From Pseudomonadales bacterium (GTDB lineage: Bacteria; Pseudomonadota; Gammaproteobacteria; Pseudomonadales; Azotimanducaceae): 35,410 nucleotides of DNA. Made by a program: the position numbers and the translations under genes. Positions 728 to 35,316 of this stretch are shown here, piece after piece (position 1 is the stretch's first letter; the number at the start of each line of letters is the position of its first letter). The stretch spans positions 62,163 to 97,572 of the forward strand of contig JAFMIA010000004.1 in NCBI GenBank assembly GCA_017854255.1, read 5' to 3'. The notes beneath the pieces are model-generated. The model had not been told where the DNA came from. It did not search any database and was given only the letters and a program-made list of their open reading frames with translations.

Positions 728-1039
728 TGGGCGTTGCTTCACAATTGTGAACGGCAAATAAGCCATCACCAGAACGCCATCAAAACTCCCCAATAAACAT
801 TCGTCAGCAGCTAGCGGCATCCAATCCTGGATCATGGCGGCGGGTTGCCGAGGGTTGCGGCGTTGCTCGTTCGGGATCGATTCAACGCTGAGTTTCACAC
901 GCCGCTGCAGGTTCAATGAGAACCCTCCCCAGTAATAATATTGTAGCTGTCCCGAGCGCATCATAACGCCAACGGTGCCGGTGTCACCCTGGCTCAAAGT
1001 AACGAGGCGTTGGTTGATTCTGATCTTGATACTGTACAT
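719..1039 (-). CDS. Small SOS-regulated hypothetical protein
   Basis: This 106-residue protein belongs to no family I recognise. It is mixed polar and hydrophobic, with a Tyr/Trp-rich stretch (QYYYWGGF) near residue 35 and an Arg/Pro-rich centre, and it has no signal peptide or membrane segment. Its ATG (1037-1039) lies inside a near-consensus LexA box at 1030-1049. A -10 hexamer TATACT (1051 to 1046 on the minus strand) ends six bases before the A of the ATG. There is no Shine-Dalgarno sequence upstream, so the mRNA may be leaderless. LexA bound here would block both the -10 and the start. The gene converges on the MarR gene and overlaps it by nine bases. SOS control suggests a role in DNA damage, for example a division inhibitor, but the sequence does not look like SulA or DinI. 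The promoter evidence is strong and the function unknown. Confidence 0.6.
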   Translation of the reverse strand: MYSIKIRINQRLVTLSQGDTGTVGVMMRSGQLQYYYWGGFSLNLQRRVKLSVESIPNEQRRNPRQPAAMIQDWMPLAADECLLGSFDGVLVMAYLPFTIVKQRPLH

Positions 1040-1049
1040 TTATACAGTA
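1030..1049 (-). promoter_or_regulatory. LexA (SOS) box
   Basis: TACTGTACATTTATACAGTA contains CTGT-N8-ACAG and has perfect TACTG/CAGTA ends, very close to the gammaproteobacterial LexA consensus. It covers the start codon of the leftward gene and most of that gene's -10 element. The rightward tRNA promoter lies only about 20 bases away and is probably not covered. Confidence 0.85.
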
Positions 1050-1067
1050 TAAACCATTTCAGGAGTG

Positions 1068-1097
1068 CTGGCATGGATGCACCAGATTGCCTATACT
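1068..1097 (+). promoter_or_regulatory. Probable sigma-70 promoter of tRNA-Arg
   Basis: A -35-like CTGGCA (1068-1073) and a -10 TATACT (1092-1097) are separated by 18 bases. The -10 is followed at once by GCGCG, a GC-rich discriminator of the kind that places stable-RNA promoters under stringent control. Transcription would begin near 1104, about 27 bases before the mature tRNA. Confidence 0.5.
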
Positions 1098-1130
1098 GCG
1101 CGTCTTGTTTTTGCATTCGCAAGCAAGAGT

Positions 1131-1207
1131 CCGCTCGTAGCTCAGCTGGATAGAGCACCAGGCTTCGAACCTGGGTGTCGGGAGTTCGAATCTCTCCGGG
1201 CGGGCCA
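1131..1207 (+). tRNA. tRNA-Arg (anticodon TCG)
   Basis: A full cloverleaf of 77 bases can be folded by hand: acceptor CCGCTCG/CGGGCGG, D stem GCTC/GAGC, anticodon stem CCAGG/CCTGG around loop CTTCGAA (anticodon 1165-1167), five-base variable loop, and T stem GGGAG/CTCTC around TTCGAAT. The discriminator is G and CCA is encoded. The D loop has the A20 expected for arginine identity. It reads CGA codons. The first pair is C1-G72 rather than the usual G1-C72, and all seven acceptor positions pair, including one T-G wobble. Confidence 0.95.
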
Positions 1208-1575
1208 TCTTTTTCAAGATGGATCAACAAAATCAATATCTTACAGCTTCCATTCTTGGCCATCGCTGTTGTCGTTTGCACCGCTTGCACGCGCTTTTTT
1301 TGATCAGGGCTCGATGGAAAAGTGCGGTTGCATTTAGCGAAGCAAGCCTAAAACAACCTGACTGGGGTTGGCCCCAATTAGAATGAGTATGAATCCTCGG
1401 CGAATCGAAAGGCGAGTTGGTGCTTCGATGTGCTCTCGGTCAATGCGCTTAGGCGTGGCCACAACCGTTAGCCGCGTGGCAGATGGCCTGGCCGATGTAA
1501 AGGCGGCTGTTTTAGAGACTTGAATCGAGCTCGCCCTGTCGGGCGAGCGCGGTCTTGCTGGGTCTCTTGCTGGGT
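1208..1575. other. Gene-free stretch after the tRNA
   Basis: I see no credible coding frame here. It begins with a short hairpin (CCATCTT/AAGATGG, 1205-1222) that overlaps the tRNA CCA end, and has a T7 run at about 1294-1300 without a clear stem. On the P450 side it holds a perfect 8-bp hairpin, listed separately. Confidence 0.5.
1529..1548 (-). terminator. Hairpin downstream of P450 (possible terminator)
   Basis: GCTCGCCC and GGGCGAGC form a perfect 8-bp stem with a TGTC loop, 27 bases past the P450 stop codon. No U-run follows on the minus strand, so it may be an mRNA 3'-end stabiliser or a Rho-assisted stop rather than a classic terminator. Confidence 0.4.
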
Positions 1576-4344: not shown

Positions 4345-5301
4345 GTGCCAAAGTTTAGTGACGTTAATGAGTCCGATAATCTAAAGGTTGATCTCAAGGA
4401 TACGGATCGACCGCTTGCTGAAACCTTGAACCCTAATTTTAGGTACGCACTTTTTTCTCCCATCGCAAAAGGTGGGAAATCATTGATCCAATCTTGCTCA
4501 GATTTGTATCTGTCCCGTCGAATTTGTTACAAGAGTCTTCGTCGTGAGTTTGCGGAGGATCCTGTTGAGCAAAAAAGGCTGCTTCGTGAAGCCCGGGTAA
4601 CCGCGATCCTGCAGCATCCGAATATCGTGCCGACCTACGATCTGGGTCGCGACACCCGTGGTCACTACTACTTCACGATGAAACTAGTCCATGGCTATAC
4701 CTTGCGTGAGGTGCTCGACTACCGCGAGCGCTATGATCTGACCCAATTGGTTGACGTGATTGAGCAGGTGGCCCAGGCTTTGTCCTATGCGCATACCAAA
4801 GGCGTCATCCATCGTGATGTCAAACCTGAAAATATTCTTGTTGGGCCTTTTGGTGAGGTTGTTCTCTTGGACTGGGGACTTGCCAAAGTTTGGGATACGC
4901 CCGAACCAAGCGCGTCACCGGATGCCTCTGAGCCTGAATCTGAAGCGCTGCCGCTGACCATGACCCGGCATGGCAAAGTACAAGGCACCATCAGCTATAT
5001 GTCCCCAGAACAGCTGACCAACGAGACCGAAATCGACAGCCGTGCCGACATCTATAGCCTGGGCGCCGTGCTCTATGAGGTCTTAACGGGGCAAAATGCG
5101 GCCGTTGGTGAAACCATGGATGAACTCGCTCGGAGTGTTCGGTATGACACGCCGGGTTTGCCATCCCAAGTTGCACGCTTGAAAATCCCCAAGTTATTGG
5201 AAGATTTGACGATGCGCTGTTTGAAAAAAGAGCCATCCGAACGATTGGCCAATATGGAAGAAATGATTCGGTTGTTATCGCAGAACTGGCAGCTCAGTTA
5301 A
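4345..5301 (+). CDS. Hanks-type Ser/Thr protein kinase
   Basis: This is a cytoplasmic kinase of about 318 residues, with no membrane segment or sensor domain. From the GTG start, the ATP-anchoring Lys is near residue 63 (CYKSL), the helix-C Glu near 82, the HRDVKPEN catalytic loop places Asp at 158, and the metal-binding motif is DWG (Asp 176) instead of DFG. It is followed by an activation segment ending SPEQ in place of APE. The glycine loop is poor (AKGGKSLIQS), with only one Gly pair. GTG at 4345 has AAGGGA nine bases upstream, while the ATG at 4231 has no ribosome site. The gene ends tail to tail with a PP2C phosphatase, sharing two bases of the stop codons. The pair probably opposes each other on common substrates. 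A long structured leader precedes it. Confidence 0.92.
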   Translation: MPKFSDVNESDNLKVDLKDTDRPLAETLNPNFRYALFSPIAKGGKSLIQSCSDLYLSRRICYKSLRREFAEDPVEQKRLLREARVTAILQHPNIVPTYDLGRDTRGHYYFTMKLVHGYTLREVLDYRERYDLTQLVDVIEQVAQALSYAHTKGVIHRDVKPENILVGPFGEVVLLDWGLAKVWDTPEPSASPDASEPESEALPLTMTRHGKVQGTISYMSPEQLTNETEIDSRADIYSLGAVLYEVLTGQNAAVGETMDELARSVRYDTPGLPSQVARLKIPKLLEDLTMRCLKKEPSERLANMEEMIRLLSQNWQLS

Positions 5302-24341: not shown

Positions 24342-25547
24342 CTAGCTGTAGTGGTGAATGAAGTCTGTAAAAAGCGCGCGCTGGGCATGCGAGCCGCCAA
24401 TTTGCTGCAGTTCTGGCGCAAGTTCCATAAGCTGATCCACGCCGCGTTCCGCGGATCCCTGGGCAAGGTCTACAAGGGCCTTGGCCGTCTCCAAACCGAC
24501 AGCGTGACAAATTCTACCCTGCTCTTGCGGCAGTTGCGCCCAGCGTTGGAGATTGCTCAGGGCCGCGTCGATGACGGCCTGATCGCCATTTTTGACGGCG
24601 ACCATAACGTAGTGCAGCGCAATGAAGACAAGTTCTTGGTCCTCGGCGCGATGATAATAGGGCCTGAGCATCTCCCATCGGTTACCGAGATCCAGACCCT
24701 TCATTTCCAATCGCCAGAGTAGGCTTGCGGCATTGCAGACATCGAGATAAAAGTCGTCCTTCAAGCAGTCGACAAGGGCTTCATCAAAAAGCGTTAAGGC
24801 TTGCTCGGCTTGACCAAAATCGATCAACATCAACGCTTTATGCCAGATCAAATGATTCGAAAAGTTGTTCGTCTGAGCCCAGCTTGGGAGGCAATCATCG
24901 ATCCAGCCAATGCCTGCCTTAAAGTCACCTTGCATCTGATGCACATGCGCAACGGCGTGGGCTGCCCACATATCCAGGGGCTCGGCTGCGACCGCCGCCT
25001 GGCCGCAAGCAAGTGCTTGGTCATAGATACCACACTCCTCGAATCCAAAGGCCTGCATGCCAACAATAAAACTGCGCCAAGGATGGTCTTGCGGCCAGTG
25101 GGGTAGGCTGTTCTGAATAGCGCCGAGCATGGCGTGCGCGTCGCCACGATAAAAGTGTAGATGGTTGGCGGCTTTGAGCGCGATCAGGTCCGTCGGATCT
25201 GCCGCTAAGATCTCGCCTAATATAGCGCTGGTCTTGTTGGTGTCATTGCGCTGCCAAGCCTTTAAGGCGGCGACGTGTGCTTGCTCGCGAGCATTGCCCG
25301 CCGTCTGCTCGGCGGCTTGCAGGCTTTGCTCAAGCGGTTGCGAAAACCGCGGATCGCTGGCCATTTTTAATTGGTATCCTCGAAACAAATGCCCCAGAGC
25401 GAAGGTGGGATCATTGGCTTGGATGCCTTCCAGGGTCGACAGGGTCTGCGTGCTGTATCGAAGATATTGATCAATCACGCCGTCAAAGGCGGTAAGTGTT
25501 GCAGGGTCATGGCTGGAGCAGGGCATGAGTTGATTAATGATGGCCAT
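24342..25547 (-). CDS. TTC38-like tetratricopeptide-repeat protein
   Basis: This 401-residue, largely helical protein has repeated TPR-type helix pairs and no signal peptide. The segment DMWAAHAVAHVHQMQGD near residue 190-206 and WHKALMLIDFG near 235 match the conserved core of the TTC38 family, known from animals and many proteobacteria but biochemically undefined. It would act as a cytoplasmic protein scaffold. Its ATG at 25547 lies inside the end of the DUF924 gene (14-base overlap), implying coupled translation, and the hydratase gene follows eight bases later. DUF924 proteins are also TPR-like, so the two may form a pair. Function unknown. Confidence 0.85.
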   Translation of the reverse strand: MAIINQLMPCSSHDPATLTAFDGVIDQYLRYSTQTLSTLEGIQANDPTFALGHLFRGYQLKMASDPRFSQPLEQSLQAAEQTAGNAREQAHVAALKAWQRNDTNKTSAILGEILAADPTDLIALKAANHLHFYRGDAHAMLGAIQNSLPHWPQDHPWRSFIVGMQAFGFEECGIYDQALACGQAAVAAEPLDMWAAHAVAHVHQMQGDFKAGIGWIDDCLPSWAQTNNFSNHLIWHKALMLIDFGQAEQALTLFDEALVDCLKDDFYLDVCNAASLLWRLEMKGLDLGNRWEMLRPYYHRAEDQELVFIALHYVMVAVKNGDQAVIDAALSNLQRWAQLPQEQGRICHAVGLETAKALVDLAQGSAERGVDQLMELAPELQQIGGSHAQRALFTDFIHHYS

Positions 25548-26169
25548 GTGATTGTCCGTAACGTTGAGGTTGCTGTTTTAAATACTCGGTTTCTTGCGGG
25601 CTGTTGGCTCGGTTAAGGATGTCATTTCGGTGCGGGAAGCGCCCAAATCGTTCAATGATTAAAGCGTGCGCTTGAAAGGACTTCAAGAAGCCTTGAAATA
25701 AGGGCAACCAGCAGGACGGAACTTGCTGGGTTAGGGCTTCGAGCTTTGAAATGCCGATGTGTTGCGCTGATCGATTCTCTGAATGATGGTAGGGATGGAG
25801 CGTAAAAAGTTGTTCGACGGGATGAAGGTCAACCACCGTCTTTGCATCATCCAACTGGCGGCTAAAAGTTAAAGCGAGGGGATCGAAGGCGAAGGCCTTG
25901 GGCGTGCCGCGGTACAGGTGCCTTGAAAATTGATCAAGCAGTATGATCCGAGCCAGAATCTCACGATCAGTGAGGCCGCCCCCAATTTCTTTAGCCGCTG
26001 CTGAGGCATGCATTGCTTTAAACTGCGCGGCAATGAGTCGATCCAGGGCTGCGCCACCTCGATACCAGCGCTGCTTAGCGCGTTGGATTGATTCAGGCTG
26101 ATGAACGGCATCGTCGAACCAAAAACGAAGGATGGCCTCGCTATCAATCGATTTCGTAGCCAACCTCAC
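25534..26169 (-). CDS. DUF924 family protein
   Basis: This helical protein of about 211 residues has the DUF924 signatures: AILRFWFDD at the start, ARIILLDQFSRHLYRG in the middle, HPYHHSEN after it and IIERFGRFPHRN near the end. The fold is known to be TPR-like, and the biochemical role is undefined. The start lies within the end of the transporter gene. GTG at 26169 is the most sensible, with AGGAC just upstream, while an in-frame TTG at 26184 is possible. It overlaps the transporter gene by about 26 bases and the TTC38-like gene by 14, so all three are almost certainly one transcript. Confidence 0.88.
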   Translation of the reverse strand: MRLATKSIDSEAILRFWFDDAVHQPESIQRAKQRWYRGGAALDRLIAAQFKAMHASAAAKEIGGGLTDREILARIILLDQFSRHLYRGTPKAFAFDPLALTFSRQLDDAKTVVDLHPVEQLFTLHPYHHSENRSAQHIGISKLEALTQQVPSCWLPLFQGFLKSFQAHALIIERFGRFPHRNDILNRANSPQETEYLKQQPQRYGQSHGHH

Positions 26170-26905
26170 CGTCCTGTAGACCAAGATAGGGCCTTAAGTA
26201 ATGCACGCAAATGTAGAGCGGAATGGTATCGAGTAGGGCAACCGTGAGTTTGAACAAATAGTTCCCTGCCATCAGGCTGAATAACGTCGCCAGGGTCATT
26301 GCCCCAGCCAGGAACTGTGCGCCAAAGGTGACGGCGACGACCATGAAGGAGTCGACGCCTTGGCTAATCACCGTGCTGCCATTATTGCGTAACCAAAGGT
26401 GCTTGCCTTTCGTTAAGTTCTTCCAAAAATGGAATAGGAATACATCGCAATACTGCGCGGCAAAATAAGCGAGCATTGATGCGAGTACGGCGCCTGACGT
26501 GGTGGCATAGAGCAGGCTAAAAAGCTCAATTTGGCCGGTCACACTGTCGCCATTGGGCAGCCCAACCGGTTCTGCGAGCATGAGCGTTTGCCAGGGTGCT
26601 TGGATCTCGGCTGCCGGTAGCGCATTGCCTAACCACATGAAGCCCAAAATAAAAAAGTTTAGGCAGAGCCCAAAGGTCACTAAAAAATTCGCGCGACGCC
26701 TGCCATAAAGCTCGCTCACCAAGTCGGTACATAAAAAAGTGATGGGATAGGGTAGAACGCCAACCGCCAGCGTCCAGGGTCCAAGTTCTATAAACCGGGT
26801 AATGCCAAGCAGATTGAGCATGGTCATGGCGCATAAAAATATGCCAGATAAAATGAGAAAGACCCGTTCTCGTCGAATGAGTAGGGTGGTCTTCGATGGC
26901 TGCAT
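26144..26905 (-). CDS. Vut_1/YhhQ family transporter (queuosine precursor type)
   Basis: This inner-membrane protein of 253 residues has about six hydrophobic helices. The conserved segment TFLCTDLVSELYGRRRA near residues 55-71 is the hallmark of YhhQ-like proteins, which take up the deazapurines preQ0/preQ1 used to make queuosine. A second helix pair carries AAQYCDVFLFHFWK and NNGSTVISQGVDS, also typical. ATG at 26905 has a strong AAGGAGGT site; upstream in-frame codons look spurious. It sits 31 bases after an SDR gene and two genes after a PTPS-fold gene, whose relatives QueD make the queuosine precursor. This hints at a pterin or deazapurine theme. Confidence 0.9.
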   Translation of the reverse strand: MQPSKTTLLIRRERVFLILSGIFLCAMTMLNLLGITRFIELGPWTLAVGVLPYPITFLCTDLVSELYGRRRANFLVTFGLCLNFFILGFMWLGNALPAAEIQAPWQTLMLAEPVGLPNGDSVTGQIELFSLLYATTSGAVLASMLAYFAAQYCDVFLFHFWKNLTKGKHLWLRNNGSTVISQGVDSFMVVAVTFGAQFLAGAMTLATLFSLMAGNYLFKLTVALLDTIPLYICVHYLRPYLGLQDGEVGYEID

Positions 26906-26936
26906 ACTGACGACCTCCTTAAAGGCACGCGGTTTA

Positions 26937-27638
26937 CTAGGATTCGATTTGACCCAAATTGCCGTGAAGGACCGCGCCATTAATGATTGGGTTCTCTGCT
27001 GAGAAAAATAATAAGTCTGCAATTTCTGTCGGTTCAATCAGTCGACCGAAGGCGCTGCCGCCCGCGATACTGTCTAAAATGTCAGGGTCCTGGCCAACAT
27101 GGGCTCGAAGCATTTCAGTATCGGTAAAACCTGGGCAAATGCAGGCCGTGTGAATTTTAAGGCCGGCAAGGTCTTGGCAGGTCGCGCGCATCATGCCAAG
27201 CATGGCATGCTTGCTGGTGACATAGGTGAACGAATTGGCGACCGCTTTCTCGGACAAGGTTGAGCCAACATATAAGATGGCGCTACCGGCAGACATTACG
27301 GGCAGAAACAGTCGATTGAGCCGTTGTGGGGCGGTGACATTGAGCGCCAAAATATCGGCCAAGGCCTCGCCGCTGGTTTCTTGTAGGGACCCAGAGGCAA
27401 GCTTGGCCGCATTGTGGATTAGTATTAATTTGTCATGAGGCGCTATTTGGGGCAGCACCTTGGCGGTGATTACGGCTTCAAAATCGGCACTCGATAGATC
27501 AATGGTGATGTCTGTAATGCCGGATGTCGCGGCCGCAGATCGCGATAGGTTGAAGACCTGATAGCCTGCAGCTAGGAATTTGAGCGCGGTCGCGTGGCCG
27601 ATTCCCTTGCTCGCGCCAGTAATAACAACGGTATTCAC
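26937..27638 (-). CDS. Short-chain dehydrogenase/reductase
   Basis: This 233-residue SDR has the NAD(P) motif TGASKGIG (residues 7-14), an atypical NAAK in place of NNAG near residue 76, catalytic Ser 126 and YVTSK (Tyr 139, Lys 143). Arg 34 after the second strand suggests NADPH. Start is GTG at 27638, overlapping the upstream PTPS-fold gene as GTGA with GGAGGG just before it, so translation is tightly coupled. In animals, PTPS products are reduced by sepiapterin reductase, also an SDR, so this enzyme may reduce a pterin made by its neighbour. That is inference from coupling. Confidence 0.92.
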   Translation of the reverse strand: MNTVVITGASKGIGHATALKFLAAGYQVFNLSRSAAATSGITDITIDLSSADFEAVITAKVLPQIAPHDKLILIHNAAKLASGSLQETSGEALADILALNVTAPQRLNRLFLPVMSAGSAILYVGSTLSEKAVANSFTYVTSKHAMLGMMRATCQDLAGLKIHTACICPGFTDTEMLRAHVGQDPDILDSIAGGSAFGRLIEPTEIADLLFFSAENPIINGAVLHGNLGQIES

Positions 27639-28132
27639 TTAGCCCTCCATTGCGCGCACCCATCCTGTCCCGGGCTGGATGACACTTTAACGGTAATCTC
27701 GGTTACACCATGCACCATAATTTCTGGCAGTTGAAGAATCTTTTCTAAGAAGTAATGGGAGAACTCTTCAACCGTTGTGTTGGCAACGGGGAGCACTAAA
27801 ACATCTCTCGGCAGAAAAGGAATGCGCTCGCCATTGAACACCGCGATCGTGTAACCCGCATCTTCGGTGATCATAAGAAACGGGGAATGTGCCGGCAGCA
27901 GCATTTTTTCATCAATTTCATCACACAAAGCGCGCATCGTTTTTTTGATGATGGCGTAGTCAAACATCAGTCCGGTGTCGTCAACGGGCGCGGTCACTGA
28001 GCAGGCGAGTTGAAAGTTATGGCCGTGGAGGTCTTCCCGATCGGTTGCGCTAAAAATCGTAAAATGTGCAGCGGAAAAATTCATTGCTTGCTTTGCCACG
28101 TCAATCCGCGCAAGTCTTGCTGGTCTAGCCAT
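27635..28132 (-). CDS. PTPS/QueD-fold protein with altered active site
   Basis: This 165-residue protein has the 6-pyruvoyl-tetrahydropterin synthase fold. The three zinc His are present: H23 (SAAHF) and H36, H38 (LHGHNF). The usual catalytic Cys four residues before HGH is Arg 32, with Glu 33 next to it, giving REDLHGH as in Plasmodium-like PTPS-III enzymes. The LDH Asp-His pair reads I-D-E (74-75), so the catalytic His is replaced, and the pterin-anchoring Glu of VKET reads VKVS (residue 150). An extra segment, GERIPFLPRDVLVLP (101-115), is not in E. coli QueD. ATG at 28132 has AAGAGG seven bases upstream. It heads a six-gene operon. Ordinary QueD or PTPS activity is unlikely. Confidence 0.88.
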   Translation of the reverse strand: MARPARLARIDVAKQAMNFSAAHFTIFSATDREDLHGHNFQLACSVTAPVDDTGLMFDYAIIKKTMRALCDEIDEKMLLPAHSPFLMITEDAGYTIAVFNGERIPFLPRDVLVLPVANTTVEEFSHYFLEKILQLPEIMVHGVTEITVKVSSSPGQDGCAQWRAK

Positions 28133-28250
28133 GTTCATGCCTCTTATTCGTGCAGGGAGTGTATCAAGGTCCCACCGAGGGCGCGACCGCTCTGGTCAAT
28201 ACAAAGGCTTTCTGAGACACTCAAGTCAGATCAAAAATTTTGGAGAAATC

Positions 28251-29030
28251 ATGCCACGACTCAGCCAACTCAGCCGTTCAATCGAAGGAAAAGTGGCGAT
28301 TATTACGGGTGCCGGGAGTGGCATGGGGCGTGCGACAGCGCACCTGTTTGCAGATGAAGGCGCGCAGGTTGCTCTCATCGATGTCAATGAGGCGGGTTTG
28401 CTCTCAGTGCAAGATGAACTGAGCCAGGCGGGGTATGTGAGCCGGGCGTGGGTGCTTGATTTGTTGGATCGAGATGCAATTCAGACGGTTGTGGCGGACA
28501 TAGCGTCCCACTTTGGCGGGATTGATATTTTAATCAATAATGCGGGAATCTCGATTCCTGCGCCCTTAGATTCAGATCATTATATTGAGGCGTGGGATAA
28601 GGTTGTTGGGGTATTGCTGACGGCGCAAACGTTGATGGTTCGGGCCGCGCTGCCGCATCTTCGTGCGTCGAATGAGGGCCGGATCGTGAACATCGCATCG
28701 ACCGAAGGGCTCGGTGCAACCAAATATGGTAGCCCGTACACCGCGGCGAAAACGGGCGTTATAGGATTAACCCGGTCCATGGCGATTGAATTTGGGCGTG
28801 AAGGGATTACGGTCAATTGTGTTTGTCCTGGACCGATCAATACGGGTATGACCCAAGGGATCAATGAGGAGCATAAAGTTATTTTTGCCAAACGGCGGAC
28901 CGCTATCGGTCGTTATGGTGAGCCTGAAGAAGTGGCCCATGCCACCCTAAGCCTCGTGCTGCCTGCGATGCGCTATGTCACGGGCGTTGTGCTACCCGCG
29001 GATGGCGGCTTGACCATCAAGAATGCCTGA
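28251..29030 (+). CDS. Short-chain dehydrogenase/reductase
   Basis: This is a classic 259-residue SDR with TGAGSGMG (19-26), Asp 44 at the end of strand two (favouring NAD), NNAG at 96-99, Ser 150, and YTAAK (Tyr 163, Lys 167). It ends with the family's C-terminal substrate strand and GGLTI. ATG at 28251 has TGGAG just upstream. It is divergent from the PTPS operon and convergent with atuA across an 88-base gap. Pseudomonas atu clusters contain two SDRs (AtuB, AtuG), so a role in terpene alcohol or hydroxyacyl-CoA oxidation is possible. A 3-oxoacyl reductase role is an equal alternative. Confidence 0.92.
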   Translation: MPRLSQLSRSIEGKVAIITGAGSGMGRATAHLFADEGAQVALIDVNEAGLLSVQDELSQAGYVSRAWVLDLLDRDAIQTVVADIASHFGGIDILINNAGISIPAPLDSDHYIEAWDKVVGVLLTAQTLMVRAALPHLRASNEGRIVNIASTEGLGATKYGSPYTAAKTGVIGLTRSMAIEFGREGITVNCVCPGPINTGMTQGINEEHKVIFAKRRTAIGRYGEPEEVAHATLSLVLPAMRYVTGVVLPADGGLTIKNA

Positions 29031-29118: not shown

Positions 29119-30885
29119 TTAAGTCAGAAGTTGCTCGGGCACCTCGATGTGTTTCATTCGAAGATATTCCCCAAAGGATTTCGCTTGGCCATCAATCCGA
29201 TTATTCGATGACACGCCATCTTTTAAAATGCCTTTGATGTAAAAGTTGAGGGACCTCAGGTTCGGTAGCTCGTAGCGTTCTATATTGTATTGCGCAACAT
29301 CGGGACACAATTGCTTCAAGCGCTCAACGGTTAGGTATTCGTGCAGAAACGCGAAGCTCTCGTCGGTTTTGGCCCAGACCCCACAGTTTGCGCAGCCGCC
29401 TTTATCGCCCGACCGAGTGCCAAACAGGCGACCAAAGACGGTGGTTGTTTTGGGTCCACCTGGCACCGGCGATCGCCGAGCGGGGGGTTGCTGGTAGGAT
29501 TGCTCTGGCAGGCCAAGACGCTGGGTGGGCAGCACTTCGATGGTTTTACCGTCGATATGGAGAAATTCCGTGACCTTTTGGCTATCAATCAGCGCAGGCC
29601 AATAGACAATGGTCGCCGCGCCGCCACCCATACTGTTACCGCGCCCGGTATTACCCGGAACGGTCGCTAAGGCGAGCTCAGTGATTTTGGCTTGGAACAG
29701 CCGACCGACCTTTTTGGGATCCGATGACAGGCAGGTAATGCGCAAAGCCGCATGGGCTTCTTCGTTGCTGCTGGGGTTTTCCTTATCCGATCGAATCAAT
29801 TGCACCTCAACGTCATCAAACTGATCTCGACCGCCCAAGTTGTGAAAGATTTGGTCCAGATAGAGCTCGGCTTTTTTCTCGATGTCCAGGCCCGTCAGGA
29901 GAATTTCAACGCCATTTCTGAATTGTCCTTTGGTGTTGATGCAGACCTTGTGGGTCGGTGGCGGGCTGCTGCCGCGGCAACCCGATACCCGGACGCGGTG
30001 TGGACCGATATCTTCAATTTTTAACGTATCAAAGTGCGCGATCACATCCGGGTTGTAATAGGCCGGCGTTGAGATTTCATACAGGAGCTGGGCGGTGATG
30101 GTGCCCGATGAGATGAGGCCGCCTGTGTTGTCATGCTTGGTGATAACGAAACTGCCGTCGGATGCGATTTCGGCTATGGGATAACCGACATTACGGAAAC
30201 TCGGCACTTCTTCAATGAACGAATAATTGCCGCCGCAGCATTGGGCGCCGCATTCGATGATATGTCCGGCGGTTAGCGCGCCCGCCAGGGCATCGTAGTC
30301 ATTGCGTTGCCAGTTGAATTTCCACGCAGCCGGACCAATTACGACGGCCGCGTCGGTCACGCGCGGGCAAATAACAATATCGGCGCCGAGATCTAAGGCT
30401 TCTTTAATCGACCAAGCGCCAAAATACGTGTTGGCGGTGACCACGTCGTGACCACACTCACTGAGTGGTTTGCCCTGATCGATATTGATAAAGGCTTCGC
30501 CGCCAGCTTGCAGTGCAGCAAGGTTGGGCATCAGGTCATCGCCATCAATATAGGCGACCTTTGCCTTCAGGCCTTGGGCTTTGAGTACTTTTTCAACCTC
30601 CTCGGTCAATCCAGCGGGATTAAGGCCGCCCGCATTGGTCACAATTTTAATGCCGCGATCGAGACACGCCGCGACCACTTCTTCAAACTGTTTCAAAAAG
30701 GTGCCGACGTAACCCAGGTGCGCGCCCCGTTGCTCGCGTTGATCGTAGAGAATCTTCATGGTCAGCTCGGCTAAATAGTCGCCGGTCAAGACATCAATTG
30801 GACCCCCTTCAACCATCTCAATCGCTGCTTTTAACCGATCGCCATAAAAGCCGCTGCAGTTACCAATTCTGATGATGTCGCTCAT
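29119..30885 (-). CDS. atuA: AtuA-like acyclic terpene utilisation protein (DUF1446)
   Basis: This 588-residue cytoplasmic protein matches AtuA in length and pattern: IGNCSGFYGDR at the start, LTGDYLAELTM, TNAGGLNP, YIDGDD, the Cys-rich IECGAQCCGGNY near residue 210 and RSGDKGGCANCGVW near 500. AtuA is needed for growth on citronellol and geraniol in Pseudomonas, but its reaction is not firmly established. It is the last gene of the carboxylase operon, 44 bases after the hydratase, with GGAG upstream of its ATG. Its presence distinguishes the cluster from a plain leucine (Liu) operon, although AtuA homologues occur elsewhere. Confidence 0.88.
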   Translation of the reverse strand: MSDIIRIGNCSGFYGDRLKAAIEMVEGGPIDVLTGDYLAELTMKILYDQREQRGAHLGYVGTFLKQFEEVVAACLDRGIKIVTNAGGLNPAGLTEEVEKVLKAQGLKAKVAYIDGDDLMPNLAALQAGGEAFINIDQGKPLSECGHDVVTANTYFGAWSIKEALDLGADIVICPRVTDAAVVIGPAAWKFNWQRNDYDALAGALTAGHIIECGAQCCGGNYSFIEEVPSFRNVGYPIAEIASDGSFVITKHDNTGGLISSGTITAQLLYEISTPAYYNPDVIAHFDTLKIEDIGPHRVRVSGCRGSSPPPTHKVCINTKGQFRNGVEILLTGLDIEKKAELYLDQIFHNLGGRDQFDDVEVQLIRSDKENPSSNEEAHAALRITCLSSDPKKVGRLFQAKITELALATVPGNTGRGNSMGGGAATIVYWPALIDSQKVTEFLHIDGKTIEVLPTQRLGLPEQSYQQPPARRSPVPGGPKTTTVFGRLFGTRSGDKGGCANCGVWAKTDESFAFLHEYLTVERLKQLCPDVAQYNIERYELPNLRSLNFYIKGILKDGVSSNNRIDGQAKSFGEYLRMKHIEVPEQLLT

Positions 30886-30929
30886 AGGATGCTCCGATGC
30901 TGTGCTGTGATCTGGGTGGCGGGCTCAGG

Positions 30930-31706
30930 TTAAGGTTGTTTGATCCAGTTGGGGCTGCGTTTTTCTCGAAAGGCGGCCATGCCCTCGGCGCCTTCATCAG
31001 ATTGGAACATGCTGACGCTCCAGCGCTGGGTTTGTGCAAAGGCTTCATCTCGATCCCAGGCGCTTACCGCCCGAACCAAACGCTTACATTCTTTGACCGC
31101 TATAGGACCGCCCAGGTTAATCATCCCGACTTCTTCCTCGACGGCTTTAACCAGATCTTCTTTGGGCACTGCGCGATGCGCAAGACCCATGGATACGGCA
31201 TCACGTCCGCTAAAGCGTTCGCCCGTTAAAAACAGTTTCATGCCATGATGGGGCCCCAATTTTGGGAGACAAACCACGCTGATCACAGCGGGAATGACCC
31301 CGATTCGGACCTCGGAAAAACTGCATTGAATGTCATCGACGACAACAACAATGTCCGCCGCCCCGATGAGGCCAAGGCCGCCTGCAAAGGCGGCGCCGTT
31401 TACGGCTGCGATCACCGGTTTCGGACTCTCTTGAATCGCAATGAGAACGTCCGCATAGGGCACAGACGCCTCACCAGAAATGGTGGCCCCTGGTGGGCTT
31501 TTCAGGTCGGCGCCGGCGCAAAATGCCGTGCCTGATCCGGTGATTACAATGCAGCGCACAGCATCATCGGCATTCGCAGCTTGGAGGTGGTGATATAACT
31601 CATTGACCAACGCCGCAGACAGCGCATTGCGGTTCTCGGGTCGGTTCAGGGTGATCCAAGCCGCCCCTTGCCGCGTCTCGAGACGGGTTGCAGTTTGAGG
31701 GTTCAT
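30930..31706 (-). CDS. Methylglutaconyl/isohexenylglutaconyl-CoA hydratase-like
   Basis: This 258-residue crotonase-fold protein has oxyanion-hole motifs FCAGADLKSPPG and NGAAFAGGLGLIGAAD and the segment FSEVRIGVIPAVISVVCLP. The EVRxGxxPAVIS pattern is typical of the AUH/LiuC/AtuE branch, and its Glu is the hydratase acid. It would hydrate the product of the carboxylase encoded just upstream, giving an HMG-CoA-like intermediate. ATG overlaps the stop of the biotin-carboxylase gene (ATGA) with AGGAG upstream. Whether it is AtuE (geranyl route) or LiuC (leucine route) depends on the carboxylase's substrate. Confidence 0.92.
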   Translation of the reverse strand: MNPQTATRLETRQGAAWITLNRPENRNALSAALVNELYHHLQAANADDAVRCIVITGSGTAFCAGADLKSPPGATISGEASVPYADVLIAIQESPKPVIAAVNGAAFAGGLGLIGAADIVVVVDDIQCSFSEVRIGVIPAVISVVCLPKLGPHHGMKLFLTGERFSGRDAVSMGLAHRAVPKEDLVKAVEEEVGMINLGGPIAVKECKRLVRAVSAWDRDEAFAQTQRWSVSMFQSDEGAEGMAAFREKRSPNWIKQP

Positions 31707-33697
31707 GACGCGTCTCCTGTCGCATCAGGGTCCTTCATTTCAATCAGCAGTTCCCCATTGGCGACTTGGTCGCCTTCGATGACTTTGACACTGGCAATCT
31801 CGCCATCGCGGGGCGCGAGGATTTGATGTTCCATTTTCATGGCTTCTAAAATGAGGAGGGTGTCGCCTTTTGAAACCTTTGCATTGTCCGCCGTCTTGAC
31901 CGCCAAGACTTTGCCAGGCATGGGTGCGGTGAGGCCGCCGCTGAGACCGTCGGTATCTTTTCTTGGAAATCGTGGCTTTCGCTCTAGGGTAATGTCGCCA
32001 TTTGGACCATGGACCAGTAACTCGTCGCCGCTCGCATTGACCTGAAAGCGTAATCTCTGGGCGCCAATGCGGCAATCAACGACCCCCTCGCCAGCTTGAT
32101 ATACCTGGCAGTGGCAGGGCTCACCATTAATGCTGAAACGCAAGGTTTGATCTCGCTCAGTCCGGTATTCAAGATCGAGCTCAACGCCTTGGTACTTGAA
32201 CGAAACCCGTTGTGGCGGCAGGTGCGAATTGCGCCAGCCTCTGGGAATGCCTTTTAGAACCTTTGCCTGCCGCTGGCGTTGACCACGTAATTCGATGGCT
32301 GCGGCAATGGCTGCGTGCTGTAAATGCTCGTTGGCAACGATGGTCTCCCGTGCGGGATTTATGCGCTCGATGAAGTCCGTTGTGGTGTCACCGTCTAGAA
32401 AGGCTTGGGTTCTAAGGGTTGCGACCAAAAAATCTCGATTGGTGGTTAACCCCTGAATGCGGGTCGTTTCCAATACCCGGGCTAGACGGGATATCGCTTC
32501 GGCGCGCGTTTTGGCGTGAACAATGACTTTCGCGATCATCGGGTCAAATTGCGTTCCAATAATGCTGCCCGTTTCAATGCCTGAATCAAATCGCGCTTTG
32601 GCAACGGTTGAGGGTTGCCAAGCTTTGATGGTGCCCGGAGCCGGGAGAAAGTCTCGGGTAGGATTCTCAGCGTAAATTCGGGCTTCGATCGCATGGCCAG
32701 AAATTCGGAGATCCTTCTGCTCGAATTCAAGGGCATGGCCCTCAGCAACTCGGATTTGTTCCCGGACAAGATCCAGGCCCGTGATTTCCTCAGTGATGGG
32801 ATGTTCCACTTGTAGCCGCGTATTGACCTCCAGAAAGAAAAACTCGTCACCCGAGAGTAAGAATTCAACTGTGCCGGCAGAGTAATAACCAATGGCTTTC
32901 GCAGCGGCAACCGCGGCATCGCCCATGGCTGCCCGAATGGCTTCTGTTACCGCTGGGGAGGGGGCTTCCTCGATTATTTTTTGATGACGTCTTTGAATGG
33001 AACATTCTCGCTCAAAGCAATGTACAACGTGGCCTAATTGGTCTCCAAGAACCTGGATTTCAACGTGCCGAGAGGTGCTCAGCCATCGTTCCAAGAAAAC
33101 GGTATCATCGCCGAACGCAGAGCCAGCCTCGCGTTGTGCGGAGGCGACTGCCGCTTCAAGGGCCTCTGGCGTTTCAACCACGCGCATTCCGCGCCCACCG
33201 CCGCCGGCAGATGCTTTAACCAGCACAGGATAACCAATGCGTTCGCCAGCAGCCGCTAAGTCTTCAGTGCCCGTCAGGGCAATCGCCGGCAGGGTTGGCA
33301 CACCGGCTGCTTGCATGAGTGCTTTTGCTGAGAGTTTGTCGCCCATCTGATCGATGGCAGTGGTTGATGGCCCGATAAAAATCATGCCGGCGGATTGAAC
33401 GGCTTGGGCGAAGCCCGTATTTTCGGAGAGAAAGCCATAGCCTGGGTGCAGGGCATCAGCGCCGCTCACTCGGCAGGCTTCGAGGACCTGCTCGGTGTCG
33501 AGGTAGGTTTCAGCTGGGGTGGTCCCTGTTAAGGCGATGGCGGTGTCGGCCTCCAGCACAAACGGGGCAAAGGCGTCCGTTTCAGAATAGATCGCAACGG
33601 TTGCAATGCCCATATCCTTCGCCGTTCGAATAATGCGGCGGGCAATTTCACCCCGATTCGCGATCAGAATTTTTCGTATTGGGGTTACATTCGCCAT
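31703..33697 (-). CDS. Acyl-CoA carboxylase alpha subunit (biotin carboxylase + BCCP)
   Basis: This 664-residue protein has a biotin carboxylase domain at about 8-455 and a C-terminal biotin carrier domain. It starts KILIANRGEIARRI, has the HPGYGFLSEN and ATP-grasp GGGGRGMR loops, and FLEVNTRLQVEH in the active site. The biotin-attachment motif EAMKM is near the end, with the biotinyl Lys at about 621. It carboxylates its own biotin using ATP and bicarbonate for the partner carboxyltransferase. It matches AtuF/LiuD in size and domain order. The ATG (33697) has AGGAG eight bases upstream and lies within the end of the carboxyltransferase gene, so the two subunits are translated together. Confidence 0.95.
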   Translation of the reverse strand: MANVTPIRKILIANRGEIARRIIRTAKDMGIATVAIYSETDAFAPFVLEADTAIALTGTTPAETYLDTEQVLEACRVSGADALHPGYGFLSENTGFAQAVQSAGMIFIGPSTTAIDQMGDKLSAKALMQAAGVPTLPAIALTGTEDLAAAGERIGYPVLVKASAGGGGRGMRVVETPEALEAAVASAQREAGSAFGDDTVFLERWLSTSRHVEIQVLGDQLGHVVHCFERECSIQRRHQKIIEEAPSPAVTEAIRAAMGDAAVAAAKAIGYYSAGTVEFLLSGDEFFFLEVNTRLQVEHPITEEITGLDLVREQIRVAEGHALEFEQKDLRISGHAIEARIYAENPTRDFLPAPGTIKAWQPSTVAKARFDSGIETGSIIGTQFDPMIAKVIVHAKTRAEAISRLARVLETTRIQGLTTNRDFLVATLRTQAFLDGDTTTDFIERINPARETIVANEHLQHAAIAAAIELRGQRQRQAKVLKGIPRGWRNSHLPPQRVSFKYQGVELDLEYRTERDQTLRFSINGEPCHCQVYQAGEGVVDCRIGAQRLRFQVNASGDELLVHGPNGDITLERKPRFPRKDTDGLSGGLTAPMPGKVLAVKTADNAKVSKGDTLLILEAMKMEHQILAPRDGEIASVKVIEGDQVANGELLIEMKDPDATGDAS

Positions 33698-35316
33698 GTG
33701 CCGAACTCCTTAGTGCCGTGGATCGTATTGTTATGGCAGGTCGATAGGGTGATGCCGATCACATCTCGGGTGTCGCGTGGATCAATCATGCCGTCGTCTG
33801 TCACCCGGGAGGTCGCGTAGAGCCCTTTTGAGCGTTCTTCCGCCCAGTATTCCGCGACTTCGGCGCGGGCGGCGTCCGCTTCTTCATCGAACGCAATCCC
33901 ACGTCGTTCCGAAGAGGCGCGACCAATGATGCTCATGACACCCGCCATTTGCTTAGGCCCCATTACGGCGATCTTGGCGCTAGGCCAAATAAAGGTGAAC
34001 CGCGTGCCAAAGGCGCGACCACTCATGCCATAGTTCCCGGCGCCGTAGGACGCGCCGACGATAATGCTGATGTGAGGCACCGTTGAATTTGAGACGGCGT
34101 TGATCATTTTCGAGCCGTTCTTGGTAATTCCCCCCTGTTCGAATTCCGTGCCGACAATATAGCCGGTAATGTTGTGCAGAAAGACAAGAGGCGTATGGAT
34201 CTGGTTACACAGTTGAATAAACTGCGCGGCCTTTTCGGCGGATTCCGAAAACAAAGCGCCGTTGTTCCCTAAGATGCCAACCGGATAGCCGTGAATTCTG
34301 CTCCAGCCACAAACGAGGGTGGGTCCATACAACGGTTTGAACTCTTCGAATTCTGAGCCATCGGTGATCCGGTTGATGACTTCTCGAATATCGAAAGGGG
34401 TTTTGAGATCCTTCGACACTAAACCGAGCAAATCTTCTGGATCCTGGATCGGCGGCGGCGCGTCCGGCGCGGGGTTCGGGCCTAACTTCTGCCAGTTGAG
34501 GTGCGCCACAACCTCTCGGCAGATTCGAATGCCGTCCTGCTCATCATCGGCCAAATAGTCGCCAAGACCGGAGATCGTCGTGTGCATGTCGGCGCCGCCG
34601 AGACTCTCTTCATCGGCATCTTCGCCGGTCGCCATCTTAACCAGGGGTGGCCCGCCGAGGAAAACCTTTGATTGTTTTTTGATGAGGATATTGTAGTCGC
34701 TCATGCCAGGTTGGTAGGCGCCGCCCGCGGTTGATGCGCCAAAGACGACTGAGATGGTGGGTATTCGGAGTTTCGATAGTTCACTGATTTCGTAAAACAA
34801 TCGACCCGATTCTGCAAAGTGATCGATACCGCGCCGGATGGCCGCCTCAGGGTCCTCGCCCGAATCACCCCTTAAGTCCGCCCCCGCAGATTCAACCAGT
34901 TGAATGTAGGGCAGACGATTTTCCCGTGCAATTTCGAGTCCCCGCATCAATTTTTTCTGATTAAAGTCGTTGAACGCGCCGGCCCGAACGGATGGATCAT
35001 GACCTAGGATTAGACACTCTATGCCAGAGACCACGCCGATGCCTACGATGAAGCCAGAGCCGACCGAAACGTTGGAACGCCAACCGGCGAGCGGGCTGAT
35101 TTCTAGGAAGGGGGCATCTTCGTCCAGGACCAACGCGATTCGCTCGCGCACGGGTTGCTTGTTACGGGAACTCAAGCGATTCATTGCCTCGGCGCCCCCA
35201 CCGGCTTCGACCTCCGCATGAAGGTCCTCTAGTTGGGCAAGCATTGCCATCATGTCTTGGCTGTTTTTTTGAAACTGCTCCGATCGGCGGTCAACTTTTG
35301 TCTCTAAAGCGGCCAT
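33685..35316 (-). CDS. Acyl-CoA carboxylase beta subunit (carboxyltransferase)
   Basis: This 543-residue protein has the two-domain crotonase-like carboxyltransferase fold. Conserved parts are RERIALVLD near residue 55, the FNQKKLMRG helix, GASTAGGAYQPGMSDY near 180, FLGGPPLVKMATGE near 210, and the second-domain GASYGAGNYGMSGRAF with FIWPSAKIAVMGP near 430-450. It transfers CO2 from biotin to the gamma carbon of a branched enoyl-CoA. The PGMSDY version, from memory, resembles the geranyl-CoA (AtuC) more than the methylcrotonyl (LiuB) form, but this is not decisive. ATG has AAAAGGAG upstream. It is the first complete gene of the operon, which continues beyond the right edge. Confidence 0.94.
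   Translation of the reverse strand: MAALETKVDRRSEQFQKNSQDMMAMLAQLEDLHAEVEAGGGAEAMNRLSSRNKQPVRERIALVLDEDAPFLEISPLAGWRSNVSVGSGFIVGIGVVSGIECLILGHDPSVRAGAFNDFNQKKLMRGLEIARENRLPYIQLVESAGADLRGDSGEDPEAAIRRGIDHFAESGRLFYEISELSKLRIPTISVVFGASTAGGAYQPGMSDYNILIKKQSKVFLGGPPLVKMATGEDADEESLGGADMHTTISGLGDYLADDEQDGIRICREVVAHLNWQKLGPNPAPDAPPPIQDPEDLLGLVSKDLKTPFDIREVINRITDGSEFEEFKPLYGPTLVCGWSRIHGYPVGILGNNGALFSESAEKAAQFIQLCNQIHTPLVFLHNITGYIVGTEFEQGGITKNGSKMINAVSNSTVPHISIIVGASYGAGNYGMSGRAFGTRFTFIWPSAKIAVMGPKQMAGVMSIIGRASSERRGIAFDEEADAARAEVAEYWAEERSKGLYATSRVTDDGMIDPRDTRDVIGITLSTCHNNTIHGTKEFGTWRM

Follow-up and report, generated by a model that had tools for sequence, protein, structure and literature searches.

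T-fold enzymes are regarded as sharing a substrate handle, a Glu (or Gln) that anchors the pterin or purine ring. What might such an enzyme do once this handle has been replaced? The question is raised by a gene in the window, by which we mean the whole 35,410-nucleotide stretch of a Pseudomonadales genome that was analysed. The gene encodes an anchor-less, long-insert, PTPS-III-like member of COG0720, and we refer to its protein as PTPS*. Its ORF spans positions 27635..28138 on the minus strand and specifies 167 residues from an ATG start; the preliminary description had given 28132 as the upper coordinate, which is the second in-frame ATG.

Residue changes in PTPS* and their conservation

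PTPS* belongs to COG0720 by its match to the Pfam PTPS family (PF01242; 52.5 bits, cut-off 22.4) and by its three-His zinc site, and it scores 49.1 bits against the QueD equivalog TIGR03367, below the cut-off of 89.25. The ORF is real and under purifying selection, with dN/dS against relatives of 0.03-0.10 in the three of seven pairs for which it can be computed, the other four being saturated at synonymous sites.

Most of the residue changes first read from the letters of the gene were confirmed by alignment. The zinc ligands are intact: His25 (codon 28064..28066) is invariant among close homologues and falls in the zinc column of the subfamily alignment, and H38 and H40 lie within E35-D36-L37-H38-G39-H40 (28019..28036), a stretch that carries the PTPS-III motif ExxHGH. 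R34 occupies the Cys position of QueD, completing the REDLHGH motif, and D76-E77 (27908..27913), seen earlier as IDE in place of LDH, stand where the catalytic Asp-His is expected. The anchor Glu is lost, as had been claimed, but the residue in its place is Ser154 (27677..27679) and not Val; when the anchor loops are aligned, VSSSPGQ of PTPS* lies against VSESPSQ of Plasmodium PTPS, with Ser154 at the Glu. All of these codons are on the minus strand. An alignment with both a Cys and a Glu conserved at the pocket had been named as the observation that would speak against a different substrate or reaction; the Cys is absent, but the PTPS-III Glu, E35, is present and invariant.

A scan of GTDB species genomes returned 54 loci, of which 34 (L002-L035) are nearly full-length matches at 47% identity or more. 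Among 29 aligned homologues, with identities as low as 47%, nine residues never vary (H25, R34, E35, H38, H40, D76, E77, S154, and Q158), and the changes are therefore not attributable to chance. In a broader alignment of 152 rows, the anchor is Glu in all 62 rows outside PTPS*, comprising QueD, CE-hybrid, CExxHGH long-insert, KE/DE, Plasmodium, and a few unclassed sequences. The 90 PTPS* rows (71 at <85% identity) have Ser in 85, Asn in two, Thr in two, and Ala in one, a tally that counts the window twice and is partly circular because the rows were chosen by R-E together with a non-Glu anchor. When rows are ranked by the PTPS* profile, those at 150 bits or more (30 in one set, and 24 besides the window in another) all lack the anchor Glu, and the next rows, at 134 bits or less, have it. 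Above 150 bits, all the gammaproteobacterial relatives examined have Ser, Thr, Asn, or Ala at the anchor, Glu at the PTPS-III position, and unchanged zinc ligands. The Asp-Glu pair is itself changed in 17 of the 90 PTPS* rows, in outer gammaproteobacterial families, so that E35 and the zinc site make up the constant core. Of 370 genomes drawn from the class, 25, the window's included, encode a PTPS*-type protein that scores at least 148 bits. Mobile or viral spread was considered and rejected, as a pattern-based scan of IMG/VR confirmed no relative of PTPS* and the PLSDB plasmids gave no match. Judged from these sequences, PTPS* is a real, conserved, and unusual subfamily of COG0720.

The solved structures nearest to PTPS* are those of Plasmodium PTPS, the prototype of PTPS-III (PDB 1y13, 2a0s, 3lx3, 3m0n, 3lze), at 73 bits with the single sequence and 109 bits with a profile; the next other protein reaches 25 and 28 bits, respectively. 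An AlphaFold2 model of PTPS* (predicted monomer, pLDDT 92.8) superposes on Plasmodium PTPS over its whole length (162-163 columns, rmsd 1.4-1.5 A, TM 0.89-0.92), compared with a TM of only 0.48-0.56, by query length, for QueD and animal PTPS. The GERIPFLPRD segment (residues 103-112; 27803..27832, minus strand) had been taken for a private insertion and a sign of new chemistry. It is not a private one, and its reading as a sign of new chemistry is unsupported, since the full-length match assigns the segment to a long-insert clade; Plasmodium PTPS has the same segment (..SFPKRD..), and R111 and D112 are invariant in close homologues. A tree built by a quick search, with SH-aLRT support only, five trait columns dropped, and the insert columns kept, unites PTPS*, Plasmodium PTPS, the CExxHGH group, and a KExLHGH/Asp-Glu group, in which the anchor Glu is retained, in this long-insert clade (SH-aLRT 99). 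The exact PTPS* branch is without support in the same tree, L101 lies at its edge, and long branches were flagged, that of Plasmodium among them. The kinship with PTPS-III that was suspected at the outset is thus upheld by sequence profile, fold, and tree, and the alignments and the predicted model would be best explained if PTPS*, a T-fold enzyme with zinc, had arisen from an ancestor of the PTPS-III-like kind.

How PTPS* compares with the known types of COG0720 can be stated residue by residue. With Plasmodium PTPS it has in common the fold, the long insert, R-E-x-L-HGH, the Glu in place of Cys, and the Gln after the anchor loop, whereas Asp-His and the anchor Glu of the Plasmodium enzyme have become Asp-Glu and Ser154. 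PTPS* therefore has the ExxHGH of PTPS-III, with E35 invariant in the 29 homologues, but neither its Asp-His pair nor its anchor Glu, and in the host family, unlike Plasmodium PTPS, it is not tied to folate synthesis. With QueD/PTPS-I (TIGR03367) it shares the COG0720 T-fold and the three-His zinc site, but it is about 45 residues longer than the aligned QueD rows, has no Cys, Asp-His, or anchor Glu, and reads RxxxHGH where QueD has CxxxHGH, R34 being invariant in the 29 aligned proteins. The CExxHGH relatives (L189-L194) belong to the same long-insert clade as PTPS* but keep both the Cys and the anchor Glu. A flavoprotein gene lies beside one of them (L193) and a dihydropteroate-synthase-like gene beside another (L190), a context that we take to be possibly one of tetrahydromethanopterin synthesis.

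PTPS-IV, like PTPS* a member of COG0720, bears an FGPAQ signature according to PMC5445326. This signature is absent from all 152 aligned rows, and the identification of PTPS* with PTPS-IV was rejected on that ground; in the four examples found, FGPAQ precedes LHGA, where the second zinc His is Ala. One FGPAQ-xLHGA ORF of this type lies on the minus strand of L187 (G207), in the region of an overlap between FolE2 and PTPS genes described below, and similar ORFs occur in L088, L089, and L090. The COG0720 literature (PMC5041015, PMC5445326, PMC2229834, PMC7546909, PMC13259868) names PTPS-I to PTPS-VI, and in PMC5041015 PTPS-V is a named type whose function is unclear. PTPS* may coincide with PTPS-V. 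In the open literature searched, a scope that excludes the 2012 COG0720 paper, we recognised no description of an ExxHGH PTPS that both lacks the anchor and is paired with an SDR.

Partner SDR and gene neighbourhood

The stop of PTPS* overlaps the gene for a partner SDR of 233 residues (26937..27638, minus strand), whose TGASKGIG, Ser-Tyr-x3-Lys, and NLSR stretches we read as the usual SDR catalytic motifs. Wherever the PTPS ORF was called among the close loci (34 of 34, counting the window), the next same-strand gene encodes an SDR of the same family, and genes for a VUT/YhhQ transporter, a DUF924 protein, a TPR-like protein, and a crotonase lie downstream in many of these loci. In the window, the ORF of the VUT/COG1738 (YhhQ-type) transporter (26144..27037, minus strand; TIGR00697, 114 bits, cut-off 51) overlaps the SDR, and the true start of this gene is probably further in; the transporter is of the queuosine-precursor type. 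The DUF924 gene (25534..26184) and the TPR-like gene (24342..25547; PF13428 at 20.5 bits, below the cut-off of 23.5) are on the minus strand too, and both are conserved followers mostly in closer relatives. On the plus strand, a divergent FabG-like SDR (28131..29030) is often found upstream of PTPS* in relatives. The window also holds, at 29119-35316 on the minus strand, a row of AtuA, crotonase, biotin carboxylase, and carboxyltransferase genes that resembles a cluster for utilisation of acyclic terpenes or branched acyl-CoA.

Among 30 further loci from the family and order (L095-L124, of which L098, L108, L123, and L124 repeat contigs of the first set), the partner SDR is present in 27 and absent in three (present in 23 of 26 without the repeats). 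The VUT gene lies near PTPS* and the SDR in 22 of the 30 (19 of 26 without the repeats), in several rearranged orders. At L122, in genome G083, DUF924 directly follows PTPS* with no partner SDR or VUT gene, and G083 is among the few genomes of the family with a canonical QueD. Loci from other families number 24, 18 of them with flanks of up to 6 kb and six with flanks of 1.5 kb only; nine have the partner SDR and two have VUT.

The 18 wide-flank loci, from other gammaproteobacterial families, include a methyltransferase cluster in ten cases (one member tested: PF02636) and a TGx3R SDR, pteridine-reductase-like, in seven. Three of the seven scored 354, 367, and 286.9 bits in a pteridine reductase test with a cut-off of 288, and the other four were assigned by motif. 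One of these 18 loci has a FolE or FolE2 gene, and the 66 close and further loci have none; at L169, in the small genome G475, PTPS* and FolE are about 3 kb apart (914-1432, minus strand, and 4664-5200, plus strand). The gene of a relative that retains the anchor, with KERLHGH, WDE, and DESRGQ (L187, G207), shares an overlap with that of FolE2 (312 bits, cut-off 215). The overlap was seen neither at L188 nor at L195, the other loci of this anchor-retaining group (hence one of three), and it occurs in no PTPS* locus. In G349, an anchor-retaining relative forms a gene run together with FolB and an SDR. Taken together, the gene contexts of PTPS* and its kin lean towards pterins.

Which reaction might the partner SDR catalyse? 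Pteridine reductases (PruA, FolM, PTR1) are recognised by the Arg in TGx3RxG, a rule that we take from PMC13259868, and all 23 aligned partners have Gly there. The partner SDR matched no specific family (best NCBIfam 94 bits, cut-off 270), and among the 60 of 74 PDB matches listed for its profile none is named sepiapterin reductase or pteridine reductase. From the Gly in place of the pteridine-reductase Arg, we infer by analogy a carbonyl-reducing, sepiapterin-reductase-like role. The arrangement recalls the BH4 route of PTPS-II and sepiapterin reductase described in PMC5041015, in that a PTPS-like gene adjoins an SDR gene and in the mode of working that we propose. PTPS* differs in its lack of the PTPS-II motif CxxxxxHGH, and the sequence of its partner does not mark the latter as a sepiapterin reductase.

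Queuosine and folate synthesis in genomes with PTPS*

One alternative is that PTPS* is a cryptic QueD, supplying 6-carboxytetrahydropterin for QueE and QueC despite the lost Cys, His, and anchor Glu, perhaps with a second role as well. QueE (331 bits, cut-off 300), QueC, and TGT are all encoded in the window genome (98.4% complete), where PTPS* is the single PF01242 protein. Of 91 genomes of the family examined, 80 have a PTPS*-type match (20 read letter by letter, namely the window's, L095-L110, and L122-L124, and the rest called by score and length) and 71 have a strong QueC match. PTPS* is the sole PF01242 protein in 60 of these 71; three have another QueD-like protein, and eight have none, where incompleteness would predict about four (Poisson p 0.05). 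The two-domain QueD-like protein of other families was not found in the host family of PTPS*, its weak matches falling at PTPS* coordinates, and a canonical QueD elsewhere in the window genome was rejected on this ground and on the single PF01242 protein. It follows that either a non-canonical QueD exists in these genomes or the step is made in some unrecognised way, and the queuosine-precursor type of the neighbouring transporter adds to the case for PTPS*. Against it stand the score with the QueD equivalog (49 bits, where the cut-off is 89) and the distribution of the two genes: a strong QueC match occurs in 63 of 80 genomes with PTPS* and in eight of 11 without (Fisher p = 0.70), so that the presence of PTPS* does not track QueC. 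In 17 family genomes PTPS* is kept without a strong QueC match, among them the single-contig genomes G044, G077, and G079, and also G029, which carries a short QueC fragment. PTPS* moreover occurs alongside a canonical QueD in six genomes of other families (G092, G099, G100, G111, G127, G139). On these grounds, we consider a cryptic QueD unlikely.

Other arrangements of queuosine genes came to light along the way. In the window genome, the QueC gene overlaps that of QueE (G000 C131, L059:1456-2794). A two-domain PTPS-like protein of 280-345 residues (L125-L132), with a degenerate N-domain and a C-domain that carries CQRxxHGH and AFEG, is of a type that constitutes the only PF01242 match in many QueC-positive genomes of the order and may be their QueD. 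Single ORFs with several tandem PTPS domains adjoin QueC at L086:1117-2232 (G009) and L085:1111-3048 (G137).

Alternatively, PTPS* may be a PTPS-III that makes 6-hydroxymethyl-7,8-dihydropterin, bypassing or supplementing FolB. It has ExxHGH and matches Plasmodium PTPS, whose Glu38 gives this activity, over its full length. As reported in PMC2229834, the wild-type Plasmodium enzyme yields 6-hydroxymethyldihydropterin together with the conventional PTPS product, the Glu in FRETLH being needed for the former; the Glu-to-Cys variant yields the conventional product only, and the Leu variant nothing. Two outer genomes, G148 and G166 (partial FolK match), have FolK and PTPS* with no FolB match, and they may use PTPS* as a FolB bypass. 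In addition, nine of the tested family genomes contain FolK as well as PTPS*, and in five of them (G015, G020, G021, G054, G065) the two are 3.4-5 kb apart. PTPS* lacks, however, the anchor Glu and Asp-His of the Plasmodium enzyme, and FolB was found in 24 of the 32 PTPS*-bearing family genomes tested for it. Among these is the window genome, where a search for folB elsewhere had been recommended and where FolB (adjoining an ORF read by eye as tsaD), FolK, and two FolE are present. The eight family genomes with no FolB match also have no FolK match, compared with a missing FolK in one of 12 FolB-positive family genomes; with both genes missing, folate synthesis seems to have been lost in these eight while PTPS* stays. 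Replacement of FolB within an otherwise complete folate pathway, as expected of PTPS-III, would fit G148 and G166 only. A FolB bypass as the general role of PTPS* is weakened by the missing FolK matches in these eight family genomes, and we regard it as distinctly unlikely. The early suspicion that PTPS* differs both from an ordinary FolB bypass and from an ordinary QueD is therefore supported, given FolB and FolK in the window genome and the retention of PTPS* where neither is found.

The folate-negative genomes were drawn from a chosen set (FolB tested in 80 genomes and FolK in 40, the choice favouring QueC-negative and single-contig genomes), and gene absences were read from assemblies 85-100% complete. 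Within this set, seven of the eight FolB-negative PTPS* family genomes are also missing a strong QueC match. The PTPS*-SDR pair is intact in all seven FolB/FolK-negative genomes that were fetched, the eighth, G063, being outside the fetched set, and VUT lies near PTPS* in six of the seven; the seventh locus, L098, ends at a contig edge. FolB and QueC are associated with a Fisher p of 0.0004, uncorrected for relatedness or genome choice. FolB, FolK, and QueC are missing together in G022, G031, G044, G066, G077, G079, and G082, which represent five genera, and this pattern suggests that the two syntheses, of folate and of queuosine, were lost jointly. Both FolB and FolK are present in G046 and G081, closed genomes that contain no PTPS at all.

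A putative pterin branch and its substrate

The linkage to the SDR, the retention of PTPS* in genomes where FolB, FolK, and QueC were not found, and the presence of FolE2 in the one such genome searched for it point to a different reading, in which PTPS* and its dedicated SDR would form a tetrahydrobiopterin-like pterin branch apart from folate and queuosine. We place the chances of this reading at just under even. The genome in question is the closed genome G077, which has no FolB, FolK, strong QueC, or PF00351 match. In the 31% of its chromosome that was read, FolE2 was found (320 bits, cut-off 215) and no FolE lies beside aroC; neither a further PF01242 protein nor a PF02152 protein was found in G077. 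PTPS* would thus be the only known consumer of dihydroneopterin triphosphate there, which is suggestive, for one genome that was partly read. Together with the FolE2 overlap at L187 (one of three loci) and FolE some 3 kb away at L169, this finding indicates that the substrate of PTPS* may still be dihydroneopterin triphosphate and that its product and pathway differ.

In the scheme that we infer, substrate, general base, product, SDR reaction, and transporter cargo are all putative assignments. FolE or FolE2 would convert GTP to 7,8-dihydroneopterin triphosphate, on which PTPS* would act by means of zinc and Glu35 as general base, with Glu77 or a water molecule replacing the Asp-His relay. The pterin would be held by Glu124 and the backbone, with Ser154 in the anchor's stead; Glu124 is conserved in the PTPS* alignment and, by the rat numbering, is presumably a pterin-site residue. 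The altered relay and anchor might change the product split of PTPS* or its binding mode, and the product would be a pterin whose side chain bears a keto or aldehyde group. The partner SDR could then reduce the side-chain carbonyl, as in the PTPS/sepiapterin reductase route, to give a small reduced pterin, and this pterin, or else 7-deazaguanines, may be the cargo of the VUT transporter.

Several observations count against a separate pterin branch. The partner SDR has no sepiapterin or pteridine reductase by name among the 60 listed PDB matches, is absent from three of 30 relatives, and occurs in nine of 24 other-family loci. The FolE2 overlap is restricted to one of three loci in the anchor-retaining group, and FolE or FolE2 is near PTPS* in one of 18 and none of 66 loci. 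Aromatic amino acid hydroxylase (PF00351) was rejected as the client of the PTPS* product, as it was found in 38 of 146 relatives and in none of ten genomes of the window's genus, the window's own included; no pterin-using enzyme was identified in the window genome. Finally, FolK without FolB in G148 and G166 fits a role in folate synthesis. As a separate observation, a second FolE of the window genome (L058, G000 C15) overlaps a lipocalin-like gene, followed by a sigma-factor-like gene (both read by eye), and perhaps supplies pterin for a response to stress or light.

With the anchor Glu gone, the substrate might also be something other than a pterin, which would count against the branch as well. 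A 7-deazapurine or lumazine-type ring, for example, might arrive via the VUT transporter, the change from Glu to Ser then reflecting a ring with no 2-amino group. Replacement of the anchor by Ser (Thr, Asn, or Ala) is indeed the constant difference from the other aligned subfamilies, and VUT is near PTPS* in six of the seven fetched folate-negative genomes, the seventh being the one at a contig edge. FolE2 in G077, the FolE2-overlapping relative (one of three loci), the pteridine reductase near outer PTPS* members, and the conservation of Glu124 argue in the other direction, and we hold a non-pterin substrate to be improbable. The idea that PTPS* has no catalytic activity and serves the SDR as a partner that binds pterin or zinc, which could account for the replaced Cys, His, and anchor and for the 17 of 90 rows (outer families) without Asp-Glu, is very hard to credit in view of purifying selection and of zinc ligands and Glu35 unchanged in all rows examined above 150 bits.

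The reading that we prefer is a pterin branch of its own. PTPS* and the SDR may represent an unrecognised third pterin pathway of marine Gammaproteobacteria, one that employs a T-fold enzyme without the anchor Glu, persists after the abandonment of folate and queuosine synthesis, and might also close the QueD step in QueC-positive relatives; as a whole, this proposal seems to us tentative and somewhat short of an even chance. PTPS* is a conserved, selected clade in which the anchor has been replaced throughout the rows examined and the zinc site and PTPS-III Glu have been retained, and it serves as a warning against annotating QueD or PTPS by family name. The survival of the PTPS*-SDR pair where FolB, FolK, and QueC were not found offers a clean genetic handle on a possible new reduced pterin in these mostly uncultured marine bacteria.
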